IMG/VR virus record: IMGVR_UViG_3300032265_000458
Coordinates: 1-53,867 of that record
DNA from: a virus
Length of the DNA stretch: 53,867 bases
Direction: 5' to 3' (one strand)
Below are positions 2,442 to 51,247 of the stretch, one piece after another (position 1 is the first letter of the stretch; each line of letters begins with the position of its first letter). Made by a program: the position numbers and the translations under genes. The notes beneath the pieces were generated by a model. It searched no databases. It saw nothing but the letters and a program-made list of their open reading frames with translations, and had not been told where the DNA came from.

Positions 2442-3008
2442 ATGCGTGGTGAATGGGTTTATAATGAGAAGTTTTATACACCAGAAGTGTGTGATAAAAT
2501 TGTTGAATATGCGCTTAAAATTGAACCAGAAAAACCAACTCTTGGATTTGATGGTTCGGTAACTGATGATAGTTATCGAAGAAGTGCTATTCGTTGGATC
2601 CACCAGAACAATCCAGATTTACAGTTTTTGTTTAGAGATTATTGGGCATTTCTTATATCAATTAATAAAGATTGGTTTGGTTTTAATATTAACCAATTAC
2701 CATATTTGCAGTTTACTGAATATGATGCAGAGTACGAAGGTGAATATAAATCTCACCAAGATGTGTTTTGGATAAATGATTCACCAAACCATAGAAAAGT
2801 TACAATGATTATTCAGTTAAGCGATGAGAATACATATACTGGCGGAGATTTGATTTTAGAAAATTGTTCTGAAGCTCCACCAGAAAAGATTAGAAACCAA
2901 GGAACCGTAATTACGTTTCCGTCTTTCGTTTATCATAGATTAACTCCAGTAACATCTGGGAAACGATATAGTTTAGTTGGTTGGTTCGAAGGACCAAAAT
3001 TTACATAG
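2442..3008 (+). CDS. 2OG-Fe(II) oxygenase (prolyl-4-hydroxylase-like)
   Basis: A 188-residue predicted non-haem iron dioxygenase. The family uses Fe(II), O2 and 2-oxoglutarate to hydroxylate a protein or small substrate. Visible features: H105-Q-D107 as the HxD iron ligands, distal H165 in FVYHRLTPV, and R175 in the KRYSLVGWF strand for 2-oxoglutarate binding. GGDLILE fits the core beta helix. The start ATG has AAGGATAAGG upstream. It sits between fibre genes and the neck gene gp13, so it could modify a virion or host protein; the substrate is unknown. Such genes are common in environmental T4-like phages. Confidence 0.85.
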   Translation: MRGEWVYNEKFYTPEVCDKIVEYALKIEPEKPTLGFDGSVTDDSYRRSAIRWIHQNNPDLQFLFRDYWAFLISINKDWFGFNINQLPYLQFTEYDAEYEGEYKSHQDVFWINDSPNHRKVTMIIQLSDENTYTGGDLILENCSEAPPEKIRNQGTVITFPSFVYHRLTPVTSGKRYSLVGWFEGPKFT

Positions 3009-30821: not shown

Positions 30822-31475
30822 ATGAAATTAAGTAAAGAAACAGTAGCAGTAATTAAGAACTTTGCTGGTATCAACAGCAATCTACTTTTGAAGACTGGTA
30901 ATAAACTTGCCACGATCTCTGGTCAAAAGAACGTAATGGCTGACGCCACTGTGGCAGAAACATTCCCTGACTTTGGTATCTATGATCTCAATGAGTTTCT
31001 CGGTGCGATGTCCGTATTTGAAGATCCTGATTTGGAATTTAGTGAGAAGTATGTAACAATCAAATCTGGCGGACGTAGTATTAAATATTTTGCTGCTGCA
31101 GCAGAAGTGTTGACTGCTCCATCCAAGGCGATTACATTCCCTGAAGCAGAAGTAAACTTCAGCATTACTGGAGAACAGTTGGACTTTATTCGTAAGACAG
31201 CTGGAGTATTGAGTAGCGAAGACGTATCTATTGTTGGTAATGGTTCTTCCATTGTTGTTAAGGTGGGTAATAAATCTAACGCAACATCAAATACTTTTGA
31301 CGAGTCTGTAGGAACAACTGATAAAAACTTCAAAGTTAATTTGAAAGTAGAGAACCTAAAGATGCTTCCAGGTGATTATGCTGTAAGTATTTCTAGCAAG
31401 AAGATCTCTCGCTTTAAAGGTAATGGCGATTTGGTTTACTACGTAGCAGTTGAAGCAGATTCTACATTTGAATGA
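30822..31475 (+). CDS. 45: Sliding clamp gp45
   Basis: The trimeric processivity clamp for gp43, and coactivator of gp55-dependent late transcription. 217 residues (T4: 228). The N-terminal LSKETVAVIKNFAGINSNLLLK is the typical opening of T4-like clamps, and the C-terminal strands ISRFKGNGDLVYYVAVE fit. It heads the replication operon gp45-44-62-regA, here interrupted by extra genes. Confidence 0.94.
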   Translation: MKLSKETVAVIKNFAGINSNLLLKTGNKLATISGQKNVMADATVAETFPDFGIYDLNEFLGAMSVFEDPDLEFSEKYVTIKSGGRSIKYFAAAAEVLTAPSKAITFPEAEVNFSITGEQLDFIRKTAGVLSSEDVSIVGNGSSIVVKVGNKSNATSNTFDESVGTTDKNFKVNLKVENLKMLPGDYAVSISSKKISRFKGNGDLVYYVAVEADSTFE

Positions 31476-32125
31476 AAAGAACTGATTGCTTTGTAACTCC
31501 AGTTTGGGTTGTTGATAATTTACCCATCGACAACTCAACACTAATTGACCATGCACATCTTCTACGCCACAAGAATCCTGAGAAACGTAATCCCGAAGCA
31601 TATCAAACTATAAATGTATTGAAGTGGAAAAGTTACGATCTAGGAACAGTTGAAATACTTGCTGTGCCTGAATTAAAAAAGTTAATTGAATTGGTTTATA
31701 CTTACGCAATCATGTGTTTTGCTGAGATGAATCCCAGAGAAAATGCTAAACTTGAATTACAAGATATATGGTATAACATTTATGATATTGGTGTTGATTT
31801 AGAATCTCACGTACATCCTGGAAATTGTATATCAGCGACTTATTATATTAAAGCGCAAGATAAATGTGGAGACTTTGGGATAGCAACTACTGATAGATCT
31901 ATTTCCTATCAGTATAGTCCGAAGTTCTTTAAAGACAGAAATGAACTTACAAGTGTTAAGCAATTTTTTAAAGCTGTACCAAATTCGTTAATTATTATTC
32001 CTTCCAATGTTATGCATTGGGTCACTCCCAATAAGTCTAATGAAGAACGAATTTCAATATCATTTAATTTTAAAGTAACAGGTGATAACAAGTTTCCACC
32101 TAACCATAGATTATTTAAACAGTAA
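31472..32125 (+). CDS. 2OG-Fe(II) oxygenase, TIGR02466-like
   Basis: 217 residues, ATGA-overlapping the clamp gene. The motif ESHVHPGNCISATYYI supplies iron ligands H113 and/or H115, with distal H182 in SNVMHWVTP and 2OG-binding R193 in ERISISFNF. This pattern matches the TIGR02466 putative 2OG oxygenase family common in marine phages. It is placed inside the T4 clamp operon between gp45 and gp44. Substrate unknown. Confidence 0.85.
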   Translation: MKRTDCFVTPVWVVDNLPIDNSTLIDHAHLLRHKNPEKRNPEAYQTINVLKWKSYDLGTVEILAVPELKKLIELVYTYAIMCFAEMNPRENAKLELQDIWYNIYDIGVDLESHVHPGNCISATYYIKAQDKCGDFGIATTDRSISYQYSPKFFKDRNELTSVKQFFKAVPNSLIIIPSNVMHWVTPNKSNEERISISFNFKVTGDNKFPPNHRLFKQ

Positions 32126-40436: not shown

Positions 40437-42922
40437 TGCAATTTTATACTCATGTATTTCCTTGGGGCAACAAAATGCTGGTCAGGGGATATGAGAATGA
40501 TAGACCCTTTAGCAGAAAAATAGATTTCTTCCCAACTCTTTATGTAACATCAAATAAAGAAAGTAAGTGGAGAACACTTGACGGACAAGTTGTTGATGAG
40601 ATTAAGCCAGGAACCATTAAAGAAACACGTGAATTCGTGGATCGATATAAAGAGGTTGCTGGCTTTCAAGTTTATGGCAACACTAATTATGTTCACCAAT
40701 ACATCAGTGACACATATGAAAGTGATATTCGTTTTGACATGGAGAAGATTAAAGTCTTCACTATCGATATCGAAACTGCAGTTGAAGATGGGTTTCCTGA
40801 TGTAAGACGTGCCAGCGAAGAAGTTCTTCTCATCACAATTAAAGACAGTCAATCTAAACAGATCGCTACCTTTGGTACACGATCGTTTGAAAACAACAAC
40901 AAACAAGTCACCTATGTTCAGTGTAATAATGAACAACATATGCTCAAGGAGTTTATGATTTGGTGGCAACAGAATTATCCTGATGTTATCACAGGTTGGA
41001 ACACAGGGTTCTTTGATATTCCATATCTACTTAAACGTATTACCAATGAACTTGGTGAAACAATCGCATCTAAGTTTTCTCCATGGGGTATTATCAATGA
41101 ACGTAAGATTTTTGTTATGGGTAAGGAAGAAACATCATATGATGTTCAAGGTATCTCACAACTTGATTACCTAGATCTGTATAAGAAGTTTACTTATCAG
41201 AAACAAGAATCATATCGTCTTGACTTTATCGCAAGTGAAGAACTTGGCGATGCCAAGAAAGAAAATCCAGGTGATTCTTTCAAAGAGTTTTATACCAATC
41301 ACTGGCAAAAGTTTGTTGAGTACAACATTCATGACGTAGAGTTGGTTGATAAACTTGAAGACAAGATGCGTCTGATTGAACTTTGTTTGACTATGGCGTA
41401 TAATGCCAAGATCAATTATGAAGATGTGTTCTCTCAAGTACGTATGTGGGATGCTATTGCTTACAATCATTTGCGTAAGAAGAAGATTGCTATTCCGCAT
41501 AACAATCGTTCCAGCAAAGCAGAAGCATTTGAAGGTGCGTTCGTTAAGGATCCTATCGTTGGTCTACATAAGTGGGTTGCTTCGTTTGACTTGAACTCAT
41601 TGTATCCTCACTTGATTATGCAGTATAACATTTCACCAGAGACATTGACATCTGAAAAGATTCCTTGTAATGTTGAGAAACTTTTAAAGCAAGAAATTGA
41701 TACCACGTATGTTAAGCAACGTGACCTTGCGCTGACTGCAAATGGTTGGACATATACTAAAGAATACAAAGGGTTCTTACCTGAACTCATGGAGAAGATG
41801 TATACAGACCGAAGCAAATTCAAGAAGCAGATGTTAAAAGCTGAACAGGAATATCAGAATGATAAATCCAAGAAACACTTACTCAAAGATATCTCTCGCC
41901 TGAACAACCTTCAGATGGCAATGAAGATTGCTTTGAACTCAGCTTATGGTGCATTGGGTAATCAGTATTTCCGATACTTTGATATCCGTATGGCTGAAGG
42001 TATTACTACGTCAGGTCAACTGTCTATTCGTTGGATGGCTAACGAGTTTAATCGTTACATGAATAAAGCATTGAAGACAGAAGGTAAAGACTTTGTTATT
42101 GCCATCGATACAGATTCGATTTATCTAACACTTGAAGAACTTGTTGAAAGAACTTGCGAAGGTAAGACTGACGAACAAAAGATCAAGTATATGGATAAAG
42201 TTTGTGAAGATATCTTCCAACCTTTTATTGATCAAACATATCAAAAATTAGCAGACTATATGAATGCGTATAGTCAAAAGATGCAAATGAAACGTGAGGT
42301 ACTTGCAGATAAAGCAATCTGGACTGCTAAGAAACGATACATATTAAACGTACACAATTCTGAAGGAGTACAGTATGCGCAACCTAAACTCAAAGTTATG
42401 GGCTTGGAGATGGTCAAGTCGAGTACACCTGCTGTTATTCGCAACAAACTTAAAGATTCGATACAAGTTATTCTGCAGGGCAGCGAGACAGCACTTCAAG
42501 CGTACATAATGAAATTCCGTGAGGAGTTTAACAAACTTCCACTGGAGGACATTGCTTTCCCACGTGGTGTGAACAATCTAAAACAATATACAGGTTCTCC
42601 CATCTACACAAAGGGAACACCGATTCATGTAAGAGGTTCATTACTTTACAATCATCACATCAAACGTATGGGATTGGAAAAGAAGTATGAGCCAATTAAA
42701 GAAGGTGAGAAGATTCGATTTGTATATGTCAAGAAACCAAACCCATTTAATGAAGATGTGATTGCATTCCCGCAAGCATTGCCAAAAGAATTTGGTCTGC
42801 ATGAATTTATTGATTATGATTTGCAATTTGAAAAGACTTTCTTAGATGCTGTTCAGATTGTTATTAAATCATTGGGATGGAACGTAGAACATAAAGCATC
42901 ATTGGAGGATTTCTTTGGATAA
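40436..42922 (+). CDS. 43: DNA polymerase gp43 (family B)
   Basis: The replicative polymerase. Start ATG 40436 overlaps the exonuclease stop (TAATG); the earlier in-frame ATG at 40391 is rejected. Exonuclease motif I D111-I-E113; polymerase motif A D385-L-N-S-L-Y-P; motif B K497...NS-A-Y504-G; motif C D558-T-D560. 828 residues against 898 in T4. The C-terminal tail ending in LEDFFG is the probable clamp-binding peptide. Confidence 0.97.
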   Translation: MQFYTHVFPWGNKMLVRGYENDRPFSRKIDFFPTLYVTSNKESKWRTLDGQVVDEIKPGTIKETREFVDRYKEVAGFQVYGNTNYVHQYISDTYESDIRFDMEKIKVFTIDIETAVEDGFPDVRRASEEVLLITIKDSQSKQIATFGTRSFENNNKQVTYVQCNNEQHMLKEFMIWWQQNYPDVITGWNTGFFDIPYLLKRITNELGETIASKFSPWGIINERKIFVMGKEETSYDVQGISQLDYLDLYKKFTYQKQESYRLDFIASEELGDAKKENPGDSFKEFYTNHWQKFVEYNIHDVELVDKLEDKMRLIELCLTMAYNAKINYEDVFSQVRMWDAIAYNHLRKKKIAIPHNNRSSKAEAFEGAFVKDPIVGLHKWVASFDLNSLYPHLIMQYNISPETLTSEKIPCNVEKLLKQEIDTTYVKQRDLALTANGWTYTKEYKGFLPELMEKMYTDRSKFKKQMLKAEQEYQNDKSKKHLLKDISRLNNLQMAMKIALNSAYGALGNQYFRYFDIRMAEGITTSGQLSIRWMANEFNRYMNKALKTEGKDFVIAIDTDSIYLTLEELVERTCEGKTDEQKIKYMDKVCEDIFQPFIDQTYQKLADYMNAYSQKMQMKREVLADKAIWTAKKRYILNVHNSEGVQYAQPKLKVMGLEMVKSSTPAVIRNKLKDSIQVILQGSETALQAYIMKFREEFNKLPLEDIAFPRGVNNLKQYTGSPIYTKGTPIHVRGSLLYNHHIKRMGLEKKYEPIKEGEKIRFVYVKKPNPFNEDVIAFPQALPKEFGLHEFIDYDLQFEKTFLDAVQIVIKSLGWNVEHKASLEDFFG

Positions 42923-43469
42923 TATTAAAGTAATTCGCACAGGACTTAACGTCACAAAAATACTTTCACAACTCAAACAGTATAAATCTGATTGGGGTGC
43001 TGAGACAAAGATTGATGGAACTTCCAACGTACATAAAGATTTTGGTTTTCCTGTTCTTGCAGCTGGCGTATTACAGTTGGTAATGGGTGCAGTAACTAAG
43101 GTTGGAGATTATGTTGGCGATTCTGAGGTATCAGTAAAAACTCCAGCATATGACAGACACACAGAAGTTGTAGGATTTATGAAGAGACATTTCCACAAAC
43201 ACGATCGTTGTGGGTTTTTATCACTACCAGTTGGTGGCGCAGTTGGTAAGCATATTGATGTGGGTAGCTACTATCAAACTCGAGATCGTTATCATTTATC
43301 CATTGCAGGTAGATACAAATATATGGTAGGTGATGAAGAATACATAGTAGAACCAGGAACTTTGTTGTGGTTCAATAATAAGTTATTGCATGGAACAGAG
43401 AATGTTGGGAATGAGGTTAGGATTACATTTGTATTTGATGTTCCTCACAATAAAAAGAATCCAAAATAA
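42915..43469 (+). CDS. Aspartyl/asparaginyl beta-hydroxylase-like oxygenase
   Basis: 184 residues from TTG 42915 with GGAGG 6 bases upstream, overlapping the polymerase stop. The cupin core RYHLSIAGRYKYMVGDE and PGTLLWFNNKLLHGTENVG matches the Asp/Asn hydroxylase family. Probable residues: H113-I-D115, distal H159 and R169 for 2OG. Target protein unknown. Confidence 0.83.
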   Translation: MDNIKVIRTGLNVTKILSQLKQYKSDWGAETKIDGTSNVHKDFGFPVLAAGVLQLVMGAVTKVGDYVGDSEVSVKTPAYDRHTEVVGFMKRHFHKHDRCGFLSLPVGGAVGKHIDVGSYYQTRDRYHLSIAGRYKYMVGDEEYIVEPGTLLWFNNKLLHGTENVGNEVRITFVFDVPHNKKNPK

Positions 43470-44842: not shown

Positions 44843-45170
44843 CTTATTCAAATATGTTGTTGTAGAAAATCGCAACAATGGACATGATGCGATAAAGTTG
44901 ACAGAAAGTCCATTTGATGGTATAATTTATGAATATGGTAAGGTTTCGTTTGAAGAAAATGAAGAAGAGTCATCTTTGCATATCAAATTTGATTATGAGA
45001 TTATAGACTACAATAATAAAGTCCTTACCGATACCAAACCCTTCGAGAAATATATTGGAGACATTCTTCAAGAACTTCTACACGAAGGTGTAGCAAAAAA
45101 CAATTTAACGTACACAGGTGGTGTTGATGAGAATAGAACAGGCGATCTTAGCGAACCTGATTCACAATGA
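44829..45170 (+). CDS. Conserved hypothetical protein between uvsX and gp41
   Basis: 113 residues from ATG 44829 (TTG 44826 also possible). An FKYVVVENRNNGHDAIKLTE beta hairpin is followed by FDGIIYEYGKVSFEENEEE; acidic overall. Genes of this type occupy the same place in other T4-like phages by my recollection. Its coding sequence carries a perfect promoter that can transcribe gp41. Confidence 0.7.
   Translation: MTKNNLFKYVVVENRNNGHDAIKLTESPFDGIIYEYGKVSFEENEEESSLHIKFDYEIIDYNNKVLTDTKPFEKYIGDILQELLHEGVAKNNLTYTGGVDENRTGDLSEPDSQ
44898..44926 (+). promoter_or_regulatory. Perfect sigma-70 promoter inside the gene before gp41
   Basis: TTGACA (44898-44903), 17-bp spacer ending in G, TATAAT (44921-44926), entirely inside a coding sequence, 201 bases upstream of the gp41 start. 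Confidence 0.87.
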
Positions 45171-46521
45171 AGAATTTTGCCGTAAGGTAGTTCCTCATCT
45201 GAAGAAAGAATACTTTAGCGATAGAAAAGAATTAACCGCAGTAAAGATACTTTTAGATTTTTTTGAAAAGTATAACAAGCCAGCAACGCAAGAAATCCTA
45301 TCAATTGAGATTGGTAACATTAGCGGACTAACAGATAAAGAAGTTCCCGAGTATCAGAAGTTTGTCACAGAATTAAACAAGACAGAAACTAATGATGAGT
45401 GGTTGCTTTCTGAGACAGAGAAGTTTTGTAAAGACAAGGCAGTTTATAATGCAATCCTGCAATCAATCAAGATTATTGAAGGTAATGACAAGGTTCATCA
45501 GAAAGATGCGATTCCTTCTATTCTGTCTGATGCATTGGGTGTTTGCTTTGATAATCATGTTGGTCATGATTATATTGAAGATTCAGATGCTCGTTTTGAT
45601 TTTTATCACAGGGTGGAAGAGAAGATTGCTTTCGACTTGGACATGTTCAACAAAATCACCAAAGGTGGACTCTCAAGAAAGACTCTGAACATAGCACTGG
45701 CAGGAACTGGGGTTGGTAAATCTTTGTTTATGTGTCACGTTTCTGCTGGTGCTTTGATGCAAGGTAAGAATGTTTTATACATTACCATGGAGATGGCTGA
45801 GGAAAGAATCGCAGAACGTATTGATGCGAACTTACTTAACCTAACCATGGATGAATTGAAAGTAGTTGACAAAGATATCTTTGATACACGTCTGGGTAAA
45901 GTTGCTGCCAAGACTACAGGTAAGTTGGTGGTCAAAGAGTATCCAACTGCAGGTGCTCATGCTGGTCACTTCAGAGCATTGCTTGAAGAGTTGAGGATGA
46001 AGCGAGAGTTTACTCCTGATATTATTATGATTGACTATTTGAATATTTGTGCAAGCCAACGAATGAAGATGAGTCATGGTGTAAACTCTTATACATATAT
46101 CAAGAGTATTGCTGAAGAACTGCGTGGTCTTGCAGTTGAACATAATGTTCCAATTATTTCAGCAACTCAAACAACTCGATCTGGTTTTACAAACTCAGAT
46201 CCAGGATTGGAAGATACGTCAGAGTCATTTGGTTTACCAGCGACAGCTGACTTTATGTTTGCGTTAATTAGCAATGAAGAACTGGAAGGATTGAACCAGA
46301 TTATTGTTAAGCAGTTAAAGAATCGCTACAACGATCCAAGTTATTACAAGCGATTTGTTATTGGTATTGATAGATCAAAGATGAAGTTATATGATGTTGA
46401 ACTTTCTGCTCAAGAAAATTTGACAGATACTGGTAGTAAAGATGATAAACCAATCTTCGATAAAAGTGATTTCGGCAAACGAATACATAGTGAAGAGAAG
46501 TATGGTGGATTTAAGTTCTAG
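45127..46521 (+). CDS. 41: Replicative helicase gp41 (DnaB-like)
   Basis: 464 residues from ATG 45127 (AGGTGG upstream; the earlier GTG at 45118 is possible). The RecA-like ATPase has Walker A GTGVGKS (K198) and Walker B FTPDIIMIDYLN. The N-terminal part (IEQAILANLIHNEEFCRKVV) is the DnaB-type helical domain. T4 gp41 is 475 residues. No gp61 primase or gp59 loader is seen in this window. Confidence 0.94.
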   Translation: MRIEQAILANLIHNEEFCRKVVPHLKKEYFSDRKELTAVKILLDFFEKYNKPATQEILSIEIGNISGLTDKEVPEYQKFVTELNKTETNDEWLLSETEKFCKDKAVYNAILQSIKIIEGNDKVHQKDAIPSILSDALGVCFDNHVGHDYIEDSDARFDFYHRVEEKIAFDLDMFNKITKGGLSRKTLNIALAGTGVGKSLFMCHVSAGALMQGKNVLYITMEMAEERIAERIDANLLNLTMDELKVVDKDIFDTRLGKVAAKTTGKLVVKEYPTAGAHAGHFRALLEELRMKREFTPDIIMIDYLNICASQRMKMSHGVNSYTYIKSIAEELRGLAVEHNVPIISATQTTRSGFTNSDPGLEDTSESFGLPATADFMFALISNEELEGLNQIIVKQLKNRYNDPSYYKRFVIGIDRSKMKLYDVELSAQENLTDTGSKDDKPIFDKSDFGKRIHSEEKYGGFKF

Positions 46522-46530
46522 GAGAAAGAT

Positions 46531-47841
46531 ATGACAGTAAAAGTTATTATTGCTAAACAAAAATTTGATTGTAAACATCTGATGGGTCAGTTTGTTGACG
46601 AGAATCATTTTGATTTTCTTGTTGATGAAGACTGTGATGTTTACATGCCAGAGATTCCAGGATCACCTGAATTAACTGGAAGTGAAGAAAGAATCGTATT
46701 GAAGTTTCGTAAGAACTTTTTTACACAAGAACAACAAGACCAAGCGTATGCTGGTCTACGTGAAGCAGCAACCGAAACACAAAATCGTGGAGCTGCAGCT
46801 GGACCACGTGGTGAGAAGTTGGGTAATCGTGAATGGGTCACTGAGTATGAGTACGACATGGTGGAACATTTTCTAGATCCAAAGAATAGTTTGGACGGAG
46901 ATCCTGTTGCTGAAATTCGTGCACGACATGTTGGTAAACCACCATCACCATCTAATCGCAATAATGTTTGGTCAATCGATCGTGTCAAGAAAGACAAGTT
47001 TGTATTTGAAGATTGGGTCAACCGAGTTAAAGATCTTTCACTTCCTGAACAAAAGAAAGAAGCCAAGTATGTTGCCGATAAACTAATCTGCGCAACTACT
47101 TACGCTAACTCTGTATACTCTGGTATTGCTGGATGGTTTGATCGTTACCCACGTATCCCTTATGGTCGTGCTACTTCGTATACCTCAAGGAATCCTGAGA
47201 AGTTTGCTATGTCATATCCTTTCTTACAGCACTTGTCTGAAGGATTTAAAGAATTACTTCCTCAGCGATTCGCAGCACAGATGGAAGCAGCAAGCAAAGT
47301 TGATCCAAGGTTCTTAGTTCCAAATACTCCATTCACAACAGTAACTGTTAATAAAACCTTTAGAACTGCAGCACACTATGACGTGGGTGATTTAAATGCA
47401 GGGTTGTCTAATCTTTTAACTTTGTCACCAGATGGAAAATATACTGGCGCATATCTAGTAGCACCTGAGTATCGTATTGCTGTTAATCCACGTCCAGGTG
47501 ATTTGCTGTTGATTAATAATCACGAAGTAATGCATGGTAATACACCTATTGTTTGTGAAGAAGGTTCTGAGCGTATTTCATTGGTAGTTTATTTCCGTGA
47601 GAAAATGCTTGAACTTGGTTCGTTTGAATATGAAAACTGTCGTTATGATTTTGTTGAACATCGTAGACGTAATCACGAGCATCCAATGTGGCAAAAACTT
47701 TGGAATGGTGTATCAGAATCTATGTGGACTAGTCAAGAATGGTATGATTACTGCGAAGAAAAACTAGGTAAAGACGAGTTAATTAAATATCATCCAAAGT
47801 CGCAAGCATTGAAGAATGGCTTGGAAGAATTTTTCGGTTAA
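46531..47841 (+). CDS. TET/JBP-like 2OG-Fe(II) dioxygenase
   Basis: 436 residues. The C-terminal half (about 270-370) closely follows the TET/JBP pattern: a TTVTVNKTFRTAAHYDVGD strand with H282-x-D284, an ARG-binding/GNLL-like LSNLLTLS segment, GAYLVAPEY, RPGDLLLINNHEVMHGNTP with distal His (H331 or H335), and R348 in ERISLVVYFREKM. TET/JBP enzymes oxidise 5-methylcytosine or thymine in DNA. The N-terminal 200 residues are a separate domain of unknown type. The adjacent gene looks like a glycosyltransferase, suggesting that the hydroxymethyl group is sugar-modified. No cytosine methyltransferase is seen in the window. Confidence 0.8.
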   Translation: MTVKVIIAKQKFDCKHLMGQFVDENHFDFLVDEDCDVYMPEIPGSPELTGSEERIVLKFRKNFFTQEQQDQAYAGLREAATETQNRGAAAGPRGEKLGNREWVTEYEYDMVEHFLDPKNSLDGDPVAEIRARHVGKPPSPSNRNNVWSIDRVKKDKFVFEDWVNRVKDLSLPEQKKEAKYVADKLICATTYANSVYSGIAGWFDRYPRIPYGRATSYTSRNPEKFAMSYPFLQHLSEGFKELLPQRFAAQMEAASKVDPRFLVPNTPFTTVTVNKTFRTAAHYDVGDLNAGLSNLLTLSPDGKYTGAYLVAPEYRIAVNPRPGDLLLINNHEVMHGNTPIVCEEGSERISLVVYFREKMLELGSFEYENCRYDFVEHRRRNHEHPMWQKLWNGVSESMWTSQEWYDYCEEKLGKDELIKYHPKSQALKNGLEEFFG

Positions 47842-47849
47842 GGAATATA

Positions 47850-48857
47850 ATGTCATTACATGAATTTTTAGGTGAAGAAAGATTGCTGGAATGGTTCTAT
47901 ACAAAGAACTCCCTCAATCTTGGAAAACGTGTTGGTTACCGTAGGGTCTCGGGTAAGATTGGTTTAACCAACAAAGAGAATGGTGTTCGTGGTGCTTGGG
48001 TGGAGAAACGTGTTGCTCTATTCAAGAACATGCTTGACTTTGGTCATAGAATTATTCCACTATCTGAACCAACTGATGCTACATCTGATGATGGCTTTAC
48101 ATCATTTGATACTTACCAAGAATGTGATGTTCTTATGCTTGAGTTTGGTGGAACTAATTTACAGTTCTATCAAAAGTATTGGGATAAAACTGTTGAGATG
48201 ATTAAGGCTCATAAGGGTCGTGTAATCTTTTTGAATGATGATCCAGATCTACCTTTCCTTTGGGAACTTTTGCCAGATGAAGATTGGTCACGTTGGACAA
48301 TTGCTGCCAATGCAACCAACTGTGCTGAAGTAGCAACGATTCTAAAGTGTCCTATCCATTCAACTACAGTTGATTTACCAATGGCTTCAGGTATGGAGTT
48401 TGCTAAGTTTCATGGTGGAACTATTGGAAAGATAATTTATATTGGTCGTCCAGGTGGTAGAACCAAATACTTCAAGATATTCACGTCTTCTCGTTATCTT
48501 CAAGTTGCAGGTAAAGAAGCTGAGTGGGAAGACTTTGACGCACTTACTATTTTACCAAACCCACAGCAACGAGATCGTCGTAAATTCTATCAAGACTTTT
48601 ATGGGTGTCTTGCAGTATATGATGACAAACATAAAAAATCTGGTTGGAGAACTGGTCGTGCTTATCATGCTCTTTATGCTGGTATTCCTGTCTGTGCTCC
48701 TGCAGGTAACAATGGTTTAAATTGGTGTTATCCATGTGATACTAAGGAACATCTAGATAAGTTTGCAAGTTATTCTGAAGAGATCCGTCAGGCTATTTGG
48801 CAGAAACAAAAAGCCATTGTTGAAAAGACAGGTAAAGTTGATCCCCTAATTCTATGA
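47850..48857 (+). CDS. GT-B-like glycosyltransferase
   Basis: 335 residues. The N-terminal half has a Rossmann-like pattern (YQECDVLMLEFGGTNLQ, then GRVIFLNDDPDLPF). The C-terminal half carries GKIIYIGRPGGRTKYFKI and the nucleotide-sugar-binding signature region GRAYHALYAGIPVCAP (about 269-284), typical of GT-B glycosyltransferases. It follows the TET/JBP-like gene after 8 bases and overlaps the HAD gene by ATGA. A DNA-base glycosyltransferase is the preferred reading; a protein or glycan GT remains possible. Confidence 0.7.
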   Translation: MSLHEFLGEERLLEWFYTKNSLNLGKRVGYRRVSGKIGLTNKENGVRGAWVEKRVALFKNMLDFGHRIIPLSEPTDATSDDGFTSFDTYQECDVLMLEFGGTNLQFYQKYWDKTVEMIKAHKGRVIFLNDDPDLPFLWELLPDEDWSRWTIAANATNCAEVATILKCPIHSTTVDLPMASGMEFAKFHGGTIGKIIYIGRPGGRTKYFKIFTSSRYLQVAGKEAEWEDFDALTILPNPQQRDRRKFYQDFYGCLAVYDDKHKKSGWRTGRAYHALYAGIPVCAPAGNNGLNWCYPCDTKEHLDKFASYSEEIRQAIWQKQKAIVEKTGKVDPLIL

Positions 48858-49306
48858 TAGTTTCCTATGATATTGACGGAGTCCTTGCAGCCCAACCCCC
48901 ACCAAATGAAAAGAAATGGGGTAGGATGAATGGAACAGAACGTAAGGCAAGGAAGGAATTTCTTATAGATTGGTATACCAATGCCGAGAATCTAATCCAA
49001 CCAGCTGAAACCACCTTCCACGCTATTTCTGCAAGAAAACGAGAACCCAGAGTCTATGAAGTCACAAAAGACTGGTTGAATAAATATTATCCTGAGAGAG
49101 TAATTTCATTCCATTTATTGGGTGAATCTAGGTCTGTAGCCAATGTGGTAGCTTATAAATCCAATAAGGTTTTAGAACTTGGTGTAAGTAGGCATTACGA
49201 AGACAATAAAAAAGTTTTACGAGGTATGCGGAAGATCCTTCCTATCGATATTGAACTATATTTCTGGGAAAGGGGAATGGATCTACCGATACCTTTTATC
49301 AAATAA
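48854..49306 (+). CDS. HAD-like phosphatase domain protein
   Basis: 150 residues opening with SYDIDGVLA, the HAD motif I (D6-x-D8-G). A possible motif II is in AISARKREP and a motif III/IV region in KSNKVLELGVSRHYEDNKK. The family includes nucleotidases and phosphatases. Overlapping the glycosyltransferase gene suggests a shared task, for instance nucleotide-sugar or modified-nucleotide handling. Substrate not evident. Confidence 0.72.
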   Translation: MIVSYDIDGVLAAQPPPNEKKWGRMNGTERKARKEFLIDWYTNAENLIQPAETTFHAISARKREPRVYEVTKDWLNKYYPERVISFHLLGESRSVANVVAYKSNKVLELGVSRHYEDNKKVLRGMRKILPIDIELYFWERGMDLPIPFIK

Positions 49307-49315
49307 AGGTGTTTC

Positions 49316-50005
49316 ATGAAGTATATCCAAACCTTAGATTTTGATTTTGTGGAATTCCTCAATTTCGAGGACAGACCATTTCGTGCAAAATTCATACCAG
49401 CCAAAGTCTGGAATGATTTAGACAATTATAAGAATGATGCTATCGGCTTGAGGAACTACTTCAAGAAGTGGCGTTTTTCCATTGTATGGCATTCTGAAAA
49501 GAAACCAACAACTCAAATATCAGTCGGTGGTGGTTACTATCCAGACAAAGGCTGTTCTGAACTAGATATATGGACTAGTCCAGACACAGACTATAACCAT
49601 CATAAGTTTACCGATGCATCATGGAAAAGGTTCAAGTATAGAACTATTCAAGTAGCCATGCATGAACTTATTCACTGTAAACAATATTACGGTAAGCCAG
49701 AAGAATACTGCGCCAGCAAGGTGTACTATTCTAAAACTGGAATAAATCGAATAGATGATAACAGAGATTATCATGCTGGTCGAGATGAGATTGAGGCATA
49801 CGCTAACTGTGTATACTTAGACTTTAGAACTAAACGTCCAACAGTTCCAATCGCTGAACTAATCCGCCACGCAAAAACCTATAAGGTTTCAAAAACACTG
49901 TCAGGGATCCAAAAGATCTTCCGCACAGATCGTCATAATGAGGTTATCCCTCTACTTCTCCGTAAGATCCTAGTCTGGGAAAGAAAGTACAACAAATATA
50001 CTTGA
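49316..50005 (+). CDS. Putative zinc metallopeptidase (HExxH)
   Basis: 229 residues. The motif VAMHELIHCKQYY gives H116-E-L-I-H120, and RDEIEAYANCV (E158/E160) supplies a possible third ligand, as in gluzincin/SprT-like enzymes. The N-terminal domain is of unknown type. It could cleave a host protein or act in virion assembly. It may share a transcript with the upstream HAD gene. Confidence 0.65.
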   Translation: MKYIQTLDFDFVEFLNFEDRPFRAKFIPAKVWNDLDNYKNDAIGLRNYFKKWRFSIVWHSEKKPTTQISVGGGYYPDKGCSELDIWTSPDTDYNHHKFTDASWKRFKYRTIQVAMHELIHCKQYYGKPEEYCASKVYYSKTGINRIDDNRDYHAGRDEIEAYANCVYLDFRTKRPTVPIAELIRHAKTYKVSKTLSGIQKIFRTDRHNEVIPLLLRKILVWERKYNKYT

Positions 50006-50038: not shown

Positions 50039-51247
50039 ATGGCTAAGATAGCAAATGAGTTAGACCTGAGAGCGATTCAGGCTAAACTCACTCCTGCTGC
50101 CAAGAAAGAATGGAAGGTTATCTGTGCTGGTCTTTCAGACGTACAGGAAGCAGTTCTAAAGAAACTCTGGCAAACCCCAGCAGTCACCTGTTGTATATAC
50201 ACAGGTAGCGTTACCTTTAGAATAGGAACTGGTTCTGTAAAGGGAATGGCTATTTCCCCTGCAGGATTCAAAACTTCATTCTCCCCAAAGGGAACAACTG
50301 CTTCTGATATATTCTTAAAAAAATATGATAGAAGTTTCGCTGTAACTTCCACAGAGAAGTTTATTATTACATGCGCATTTTATTTTCTGATCCATGCTCC
50401 AGATAGAGTTAAAACTGAATCTGATAAGACAGAAGCGTCAGAAGGACAACAAGTCTTAGCAACACAAGCAGCATTAAAAGCACTTGTTAAAGAGTATGGT
50501 GAGATTCGTTTAAAGATTGGTGACAACTCTTACAACGTAGATGAGTTCTCACAATACACTGCTGGTCGTCCAAAAGCAGATGCTACTTTCAAATATAAAG
50601 GTGTTGACGTTGTTTGGCTATCACTTAAGAAGGGTGGTAAACCAGCTGACTGGCAACAATATGGTGGTAGTGCTGACCTTGGAATTGTTGGTGGAGATGT
50701 GACTAAGTTTCCAGATATTAAATTATTTGCAGATAATATCACTAAAGTCTTTGAGGCACTTGGTGTTTCAAAAGGTAAGAACGGTAAATATGATTTTAAT
50801 TCTTTGGATAAAGGATCTTACTTTGGAATGCCATTGAAGAATCATATGGTAGCATGTAAAGTTATGTATGGAAAAGACTTCGGTCCAAAGTTTGGAATCA
50901 ATAATTGTAACGTATGCGTTGATGGTGATTTAAAATTCATCAAAGCCAGAGGAAGTAATGAATTTGAATTGGGTGGACAATATCACATAAGTGTCAATCC
51001 CTATGAATTCAAAAGCCCAAAATTCCCAAAGTACGATCCAGCCGATCTTTATGCTCCAGTTCTTTTTGTGACCAAAGCACAGAACGTAAACCAGATAGGA
51101 TTTGATCATGCTAGGTTTTATATTTGGCCACAGAACGTACCTGCTAAAAAAGGTATCCAAAACCTAGATGAGTCGCTAAATACTATTGCTGGTAAGAATA
51201 AATCGGCTCTGGCAGCTATGGCTACTAAATTCCTCCCCTCAAAATAG
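50039..51247 (+). CDS. Hypothetical protein with PD-(D/E)XK-like motif
   Basis: 402 residues. The central region GRPKADATFKYKGVDVVWLS holds D181 followed by S195-L-K197, compatible with a nuclease core of the D-(x)n-(S/E)-x-K type. Helices lie upstream and a beta-rich C-terminal region with aromatic residues downstream. A late-type promoter box precedes it. A restriction-type or ejected nuclease is possible but unproved. Confidence 0.6.
   Translation: MAKIANELDLRAIQAKLTPAAKKEWKVICAGLSDVQEAVLKKLWQTPAVTCCIYTGSVTFRIGTGSVKGMAISPAGFKTSFSPKGTTASDIFLKKYDRSFAVTSTEKFIITCAFYFLIHAPDRVKTESDKTEASEGQQVLATQAALKALVKEYGEIRLKIGDNSYNVDEFSQYTAGRPKADATFKYKGVDVVWLSLKKGGKPADWQQYGGSADLGIVGGDVTKFPDIKLFADNITKVFEALGVSKGKNGKYDFNSLDKGSYFGMPLKNHMVACKVMYGKDFGPKFGINNCNVCVDGDLKFIKARGSNEFELGGQYHISVNPYEFKSPKFPKYDPADLYAPVLFVTKAQNVNQIGFDHARFYIWPQNVPAKKGIQNLDESLNTIAGKNKSALAAMATKFLPSK

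Follow-up and report, generated by a model that had tools for sequence, protein, structure and literature searches.

In the kinetoplastid base J pathway, JBP1/2 converts thymine in DNA to 5-hydroxymethyluracil (5hmU), to which a separate glycosyltransferase (GT) attaches a sugar (PMC6449724). Thymidine hypermodification in phages M6, ViI and phiW-14 relies on dUMP hydroxymethylase, 5hmdU DNA kinase and amino acid:DNA transferase (ADDT), and in ViI, of the Ackermannviridae group, it begins from 5hmdU (PMC6449724). A 5-methylcytosine (5mC)-type phage TET has been shown to be active (Burke 2021, cited in PMC11404850). In phage T4, the hydroxymethyl group arises on dCMP in the system formed by gp42 and the DNA glucosyltransferase BGT. 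Phage TETs with neighbouring GTs, the TAGT (PF20691) systems, were reportedly predicted by Iyer in 2013.

Here we describe a linear, T4-like phage fragment, the whole of which (53,867 bases, henceforth referred to as the window) was analysed. The original prediction read a TET-like gene and the GT gene that follows it as a DNA base hypermodification pair, and this reading is supported by the results below, with the chemistry of the virion DNA remaining inferred. The features concerned are as follows.

45118..46521, + strand: DnaB-like replicative helicase, T4 gp41-like (Pfam DnaB_C, 66 bits)
46531..47841, + strand: TET/JBP-family Fe(II)/2-oxoglutarate dioxygenase, 436 aa (Pfam Tet_JBP, phrog_24024, fold)
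47850..48857, + strand: GT-B glycosyltransferase with a T4 BGT-like predicted fold, 335 aa (AlphaFold, VIA, profile alignment)
48854..49306, + strand: small protein of 150 aa, HAD-like by its motifs (DIDGVL, SARK, K102 and YEDN)

Like the base J system (JBP1/2 and JGT), the window combines a TET/JBP-family dioxygenase with a separate GT, but it does so with another TET subfamily, in a phage setting, with a BGT-like GT and with an extra HAD gene; JGT belongs to another GT group. Because substrate and sugar rest on inference, membership of the module in the base J pathway is unproven. With T4 gp42 and BGT the window shares a predicted BGT-like GT-B fold, equivalents of D100, R191, R195 and R269, and modification genes placed near uvsX-40-41; unlike in T4, the hydroxymethyl group is proposed to be made on DNA by the TET, and the GT differs from T4 BGT in lacking a PF09198 match, in having His in place of E272 and in its probable base, 5hmU. 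The 5mC-TET of Burke 2021 and the Melnitz-type TETs with an HhaI-like methyltransferase are likewise phage TETs adjoining base-modifying enzymes, also in T4-like phages, whereas the window clade has no C5-methyltransferase and a distant TET lineage. The thymidine hypermodification systems are approached by sister phages, whose GT-HAD slot is occupied by ADDT together with a P-loop kinase (a shared 5hmU intermediate is inferred); the window instead has GT and HAD, and its 5hmU would come from TET acting in DNA. Finally, the TAGT systems also pair a phage TET with a neighbouring GT, but the window GT has no TAGT match and a BGT-like fold. Novelty lies in a family of BGT-like GTs that the databases searched do not contain, in the conserved trio of TET, GT and HAD, and in the swapping of partners after a common TET.

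Genomic setting

The window terminase is about 49% identical to cyanophage terminases. DNA polymerase, UvsX, a small gene in the gp40 position and the gp41-like helicase are followed by tightly packed TET, GT and HAD genes, and given the T4 gene order 42 - b-gt - segA - uvsX - 40 - 41, modification genes share a neighbourhood in T4 and the window phage. Where the sequence leaves room for it, nearly all close T4-like relatives have the helicase immediately 5' of TET; it is a conserved upstream anchor of the module that stands outside the chemistry. Elsewhere in the window, an aspartyl/asparaginyl beta-hydroxylase-like protein (42915-43469; PF05118, 26.9 bits) lies between DNA polymerase and UvsX, and two further 2OG-oxygenase-like ORFs were seen (2442-3008 and 31472-32125). 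Downstream of the module are a 229-aa protein with a HELIH motif and no convincing family match (49316-50005) and a 402-aa protein matching phrog_13937, of unknown function (50039-51247). A match to phrog_6059, labelled queuine tRNA-ribosyltransferase, was only weak (25.7 bits) and was set aside.

A TET/JBP-family dioxygenase

The Pfam Tet_JBP model matched the 436-residue protein with 82.3 bits (cut-off 34.9, E 2.9e-23) and phrog_24024 matched it with 524 bits. Searched against the PDB, a profile of its family found human TET2 (E 1.5e-5), with H282-x-D284 and H335 aligned to TET2. The AlphaFold model (pLDDT 81) has the TET-type double-stranded beta-helix fold, and its closest relative by VIA was TET2 (Z 19.7), followed by CMD1, NgTET1 and CcTet (Z 17-20), with ALKBH3 as the next family (14.0). 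H282, D284, H335 and R348, the presumptive metal triad (HxD...H) and 2OG-binding Arg, were invariant across 20 homologues. The best sequence and fold matches are therefore TET proteins, as had been predicted, and H282-x-D284 and R348 stand as the core residues named beforehand; the distal His that had been placed in HEVMHGNTP is present and aligns to TET2, but the motif holds two His and the invariant one is H335, not H331. Overall, as judged from profiles and the predicted structure, 46531-47841 is a member of the TET/JBP dioxygenase family, and its oxidation of a DNA pyrimidine 5-methyl group is inferred. A chance ORF or decayed gene is excluded by a dN/dS of about 0.07-0.17 together with strong conservation (against relative L002, TET has dN 0.05 and dS 0.35).

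TET relatives in DLP6, Cr30 and S-CBWM1 (GenBank KU682439.2, KF301602.1 and MG450654.1) are labelled 'SNF2 DNA repair protein'. The label is evidently wrong, and we rejected it as a misannotation of a Tet_JBP protein.

A glycosyltransferase with a predicted BGT-like fold

The GT gene begins 8 bases after TET, exactly where the original prediction had it. The 'GT-B signature' ascribed to its product was a guess from the sequence, inasmuch as no model in Pfam, PHROG or NCBIfam names the protein, but the predicted fold is indeed GT-B. Among 50,697 phage records in GenBank no relative of the GT reached E 0.01, and a scan of genome contigs gave a single one, in a MAG contig that also carries phage-like genes. 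PF09198, the T4 BGT family, matched neither the window GT nor 17 relatives (T4 BGT control, 325 bits), the TAGT model PF20691 did not match the window GT in the Pfam search, and the GT profile gave only chance matches to PDB sequences.

The AlphaFold model (pLDDT 82.6, pTM 0.83) has a GT-B fold which, when re-aligned by VIA, matched T4 BGT with Z 20.4-20.8 (1j39: 20.8 over 294 residues at 3.4 A); the next of the other families listed was TarM (16.9), and T4 alpha-glucosyltransferase reached about 15.8. Ranking by Foldseek E-value mixed BGT with the protein glycosyltransferase Gtf3, which was the top single match. Since the best re-aligned match is a DNA glucosyltransferase, the fold matches are not limited to lipid or protein GTs; such a limitation would have told against the original prediction. 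Aligned by hhalign with a profile of seven BGTs, the GT profile scored 35.8 over 287 columns, compared with at most 23.4 in 60 column-shuffled controls.

The residues with roles in T4 BGT comprise the catalytic D100, R191, R195 and R269, and the donor-site E272; D100A is named in a structure-entry title among the BGT fold matches. In the profile alignment D131, R200, R204 and R270 of the GT correspond to D100, R191, R195 and R269, respectively; of 72 homologues, with identity down to 33%, 70-72 keep these residues. E272 is replaced by H273, a His in 71 of the 72, which warns that a sugar donor other than UDP-glucose may be used. The conserved catalytic Asp suggests that the GT may be an inverting transferase. 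By alignment and structural modelling, then, the GT is a GT-B enzyme with a BGT-like fold in which the putative catalytic residues are conserved; its sugar and DNA substrate are inferred.

TET, GT and HAD form a conserved module

The HAD-like gene was correctly predicted to overlap the GT gene (the overlap is 4 bp) and it belongs to the module. Its assignment rests on motifs because the protein had no match in Pfam, NCBIfam or PDB sequences; DIDGVL, SARK, K102 and YEDN are kept in 11 homologues, and it is the probable phosphatase of the module, with no substrate assigned. TET lies immediately 5' of GT in 67 of 80 GT loci and HAD follows GT in nearly all of them. The other loci are mostly truncated or reordered, with exceptions that include a TET-less phage and an orphan GT contig (L271/L339) in which neither TET nor HAD was seen. 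With a Tet_JBP E-value of 2.9e-23 and TET beside GT in 67 of 80 loci, the observed pair is far beyond chance. Reordered modules (ParB-GT-HAD-TET and ParB-TET-GT-HAD, with TETs of other subfamilies) occur in non-T4-like phages, and all three genes are under purifying selection (dN 0.02-0.20, dS 0.33-3.0). From these comparisons the trio is a conserved module, retained across unrelated phages despite shuffling.

Several neighbourhoods depart from this arrangement. A SulP-like sulfate transporter gene follows GT in L003, L004 and L088 (e.g. L004:4567-5679), before HAD where HAD is visible, and a ParB-N domain protein, a possible targeting factor, adjoins the trio in the non-T4-like L250, L253, L257, L267, L281 and L336. 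In L046 (2685-4031) the TET slot holds a Glycos_transf_1 (GT4-like) glycosyltransferase, a third type of partner. In phage C48C1 (L112:6902-10349) an unclassified protein of 344 aa and a UDP-galactopyranose mutase come after TET, which suggests a galactofuranose-bearing base. TET, TAGT, a HAD-like phosphatase, a nucleotidyltransferase and an APH-like kinase are consecutive in Synechococcus phage S-CBWM1 (L113:3729-7921), placing sugar-nucleotide supply beside TET; the PF20691 match there is 40.6 bits, and that in Cr30 is weak.

Which base is modified

The main alternative is that TET oxidises 5mC to 5-hydroxymethylcytosine (5hmC) and the GT glycosylates 5hmC, with the methyltransferase either supplied by the host or belonging to a type that went unrecognised. 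In its favour, 5hmC is the substrate of T4 BGT, and T4-like Melnitz-type phages couple TET with an HhaI-type C5-methyltransferase, which lies immediately 5' of TET in 61 of 62 loci. TET D287 (the HxD+3 residue) aligns with TET2 N1387 and is presumably equivalent to NgTET1 D234, a cytosine-contact position. Since Asp is found here in both the window-type and the Melnitz TETs, the active-site residues do not favour thymine, and we discarded them as a non-discriminating substrate test. Activity of a phage TET in cytosine hypermodification is moreover established (Burke 2021, cited in PMC11404850), and a mispair with G is required before T4 BGT will glucosylate 5hmU in duplex DNA (PMC4111573).

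Against 5hmC, the C5-cytosine methyltransferase model PF00145 matched in none of 35 window-type records, among which DLP6, Cr30, C48C1 and S-CBWM1 are complete isolates and nine are contigs about 100-168 kb long, while the Melnitz control was positive. Most of the records, including the window, are fragments, so that such absences are evidence and not proof. In the TET tree the Melnitz-type TETs form a distant, separate and fully supported clade. Further evidence comes from the sister phages: in most close relatives GT and HAD are missing, and the slot after TET is taken by a glutamine amidotransferase, a GNAT/amidoligase-like protein, ADDT (PF18724, 85 bits) and a P-loop kinase (PF18751, Ploopntkinase3, 43 bits). 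ADDT, present in these phages and absent from the window and the GT-type records, matches Ackermannviridae proteins. As the TETs linked to ADDT cassettes are nested in the tree among those linked to GT, the same enzyme has switched partners. The kinase is not diagnostic of 5hmU, because Melnitz phages carry a homologue of it beside the C5-methyltransferase. The cassette found across L008-L081 (e.g. L025:7299-10943), in which the same TET precedes a GATase, a GNAT/amidoligase-like protein, ADDT and the kinase, reads as a TET-initiated amino-acid hypermodification cassette. In phage Melnitz-3 (L129:4010-8090) the C5-methyltransferase and TET are followed by a 427-aa unknown protein and a P-loop kinase like that of the ADDT cassette, which hints at 5hmC phosphorylation.

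The TET-less phage bears on the same question. A single divergent phage on two contigs with identical GT (L277/L278; GT 33% identical to that of the window) has the arrangement GT-HAD-HMUDK_hel-TS, with no Tet_JBP match in the 47.7-kb record; a search for further relatives of its GT returned the same phage only. Next to GT and HAD is a protein with the helical domain of 5hmdU DNA kinase (PF18723, 91 bits), and the thymidylate synthase (TS) homologue has Asn at the position of T4 dCMP hydroxymethylase Asp179, the residue that decides between dCMP and dUMP (PMC6400193). An ORF taken as the Cr30 TS in this comparison proved to be the wrong, reductase-like one and is left out of account. The TS homologue being of the dUMP type, GT and HAD sit there where 5hmU is probably made, and in the window TET would replace the dUMP hydroxymethylase. 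The TET-GT records, near-full-length ones included, yielded no TS homologue (among the TET phages searched, only Cr30 has one), which leaves TET as the only visible source of the 5-hydroxymethyl group. Taken together, the missing C5-methyltransferases, the thymidine-hypermodification cassettes of sister TETs and the TET-less phage make glycosylation of 5hmC unlikely. Thymine, which the original prediction had offered as a possible substrate, is strengthened as the most likely substrate of TET, if only by indirect comparative evidence; the likely product is a base-J-like sugar on 5hmU, the sugar being inferred.

If thymine is the substrate, its hydroxylation and glycosylation might be confined to a small number of sites, where the product would be a mark with a directed or regulatory role and not a general protection. 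The ParB-N domain proteins adjoining the trio in some phages hint at site-directed action, and base J in trypanosomatids amounts to about 1% of T (PMC6449724), but no ParB neighbour is present at the window locus and M6, ViI and phiW-14 modify T in bulk (PMC6449724), so that we consider a sparse mark distinctly unlikely. That the GT is merely a neighbour of TET and has as its target not DNA but a lipid, a small molecule or a protein is very improbable: it belongs to no sequence family, the GT-B fold is common to many enzymes and Gtf3 heads the Foldseek ranking, but T4 BGT is well ahead of all others in VIA, the BGT catalytic Asp and Arg residues are conserved, TET-GT-HAD is kept through rearrangement and transfer among unrelated phages, and the TET-less phage with GT and HAD has another likely source of hydroxymethylpyrimidine.

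Proposed pathway and implications

We consider it probable that the trio is a post-replicative base modification module with a likely protective role; thymine as the substrate, the sugar, the role of HAD and protection itself are inferred. In the pathway that we propose, TET would act on a pyrimidine of the phage DNA, thymine being the most probable one, and hydroxylation of its 5-methyl group would then give 5hmU. The BGT-like GT would then move a sugar from a nucleotide-sugar to the new hydroxyl to give glycosyl-5hmU, which would be base J if the sugar were beta-glucose, and the HAD protein may serve the glycosylation step, perhaps by removing phosphate from a sugar phosphate or a nucleotide phosphate. 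Shielding of phage DNA against host restriction or other nucleases would be the likely purpose. A broader proposal, on which the evidence leaves us evenly divided, is that a widespread set of phages makes base J, or the same base with a different sugar, by way of TET-made 5hmU and a BGT-like GT of an undescribed family with HAD, and that TET-made 5hmU is a shared entry to exchangeable thymine modifications (GT-HAD or ADDT/kinase), replacing the dUMP hydroxymethylase of the M6/ViI type.

The question of the phage TET substrate now becomes simply testable. If the proposal is true, a DNA glycosyltransferase family is missing from the databases searched, and thymine-directed TETs and 5hmU glycosyltransferases would serve as reagents for 5hmU mapping. 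Phages would then possess a base-J-like pathway, the viral counterpart of trypanosome base J, and a TET route to thymine hypermodification without an altered nucleotide pool.
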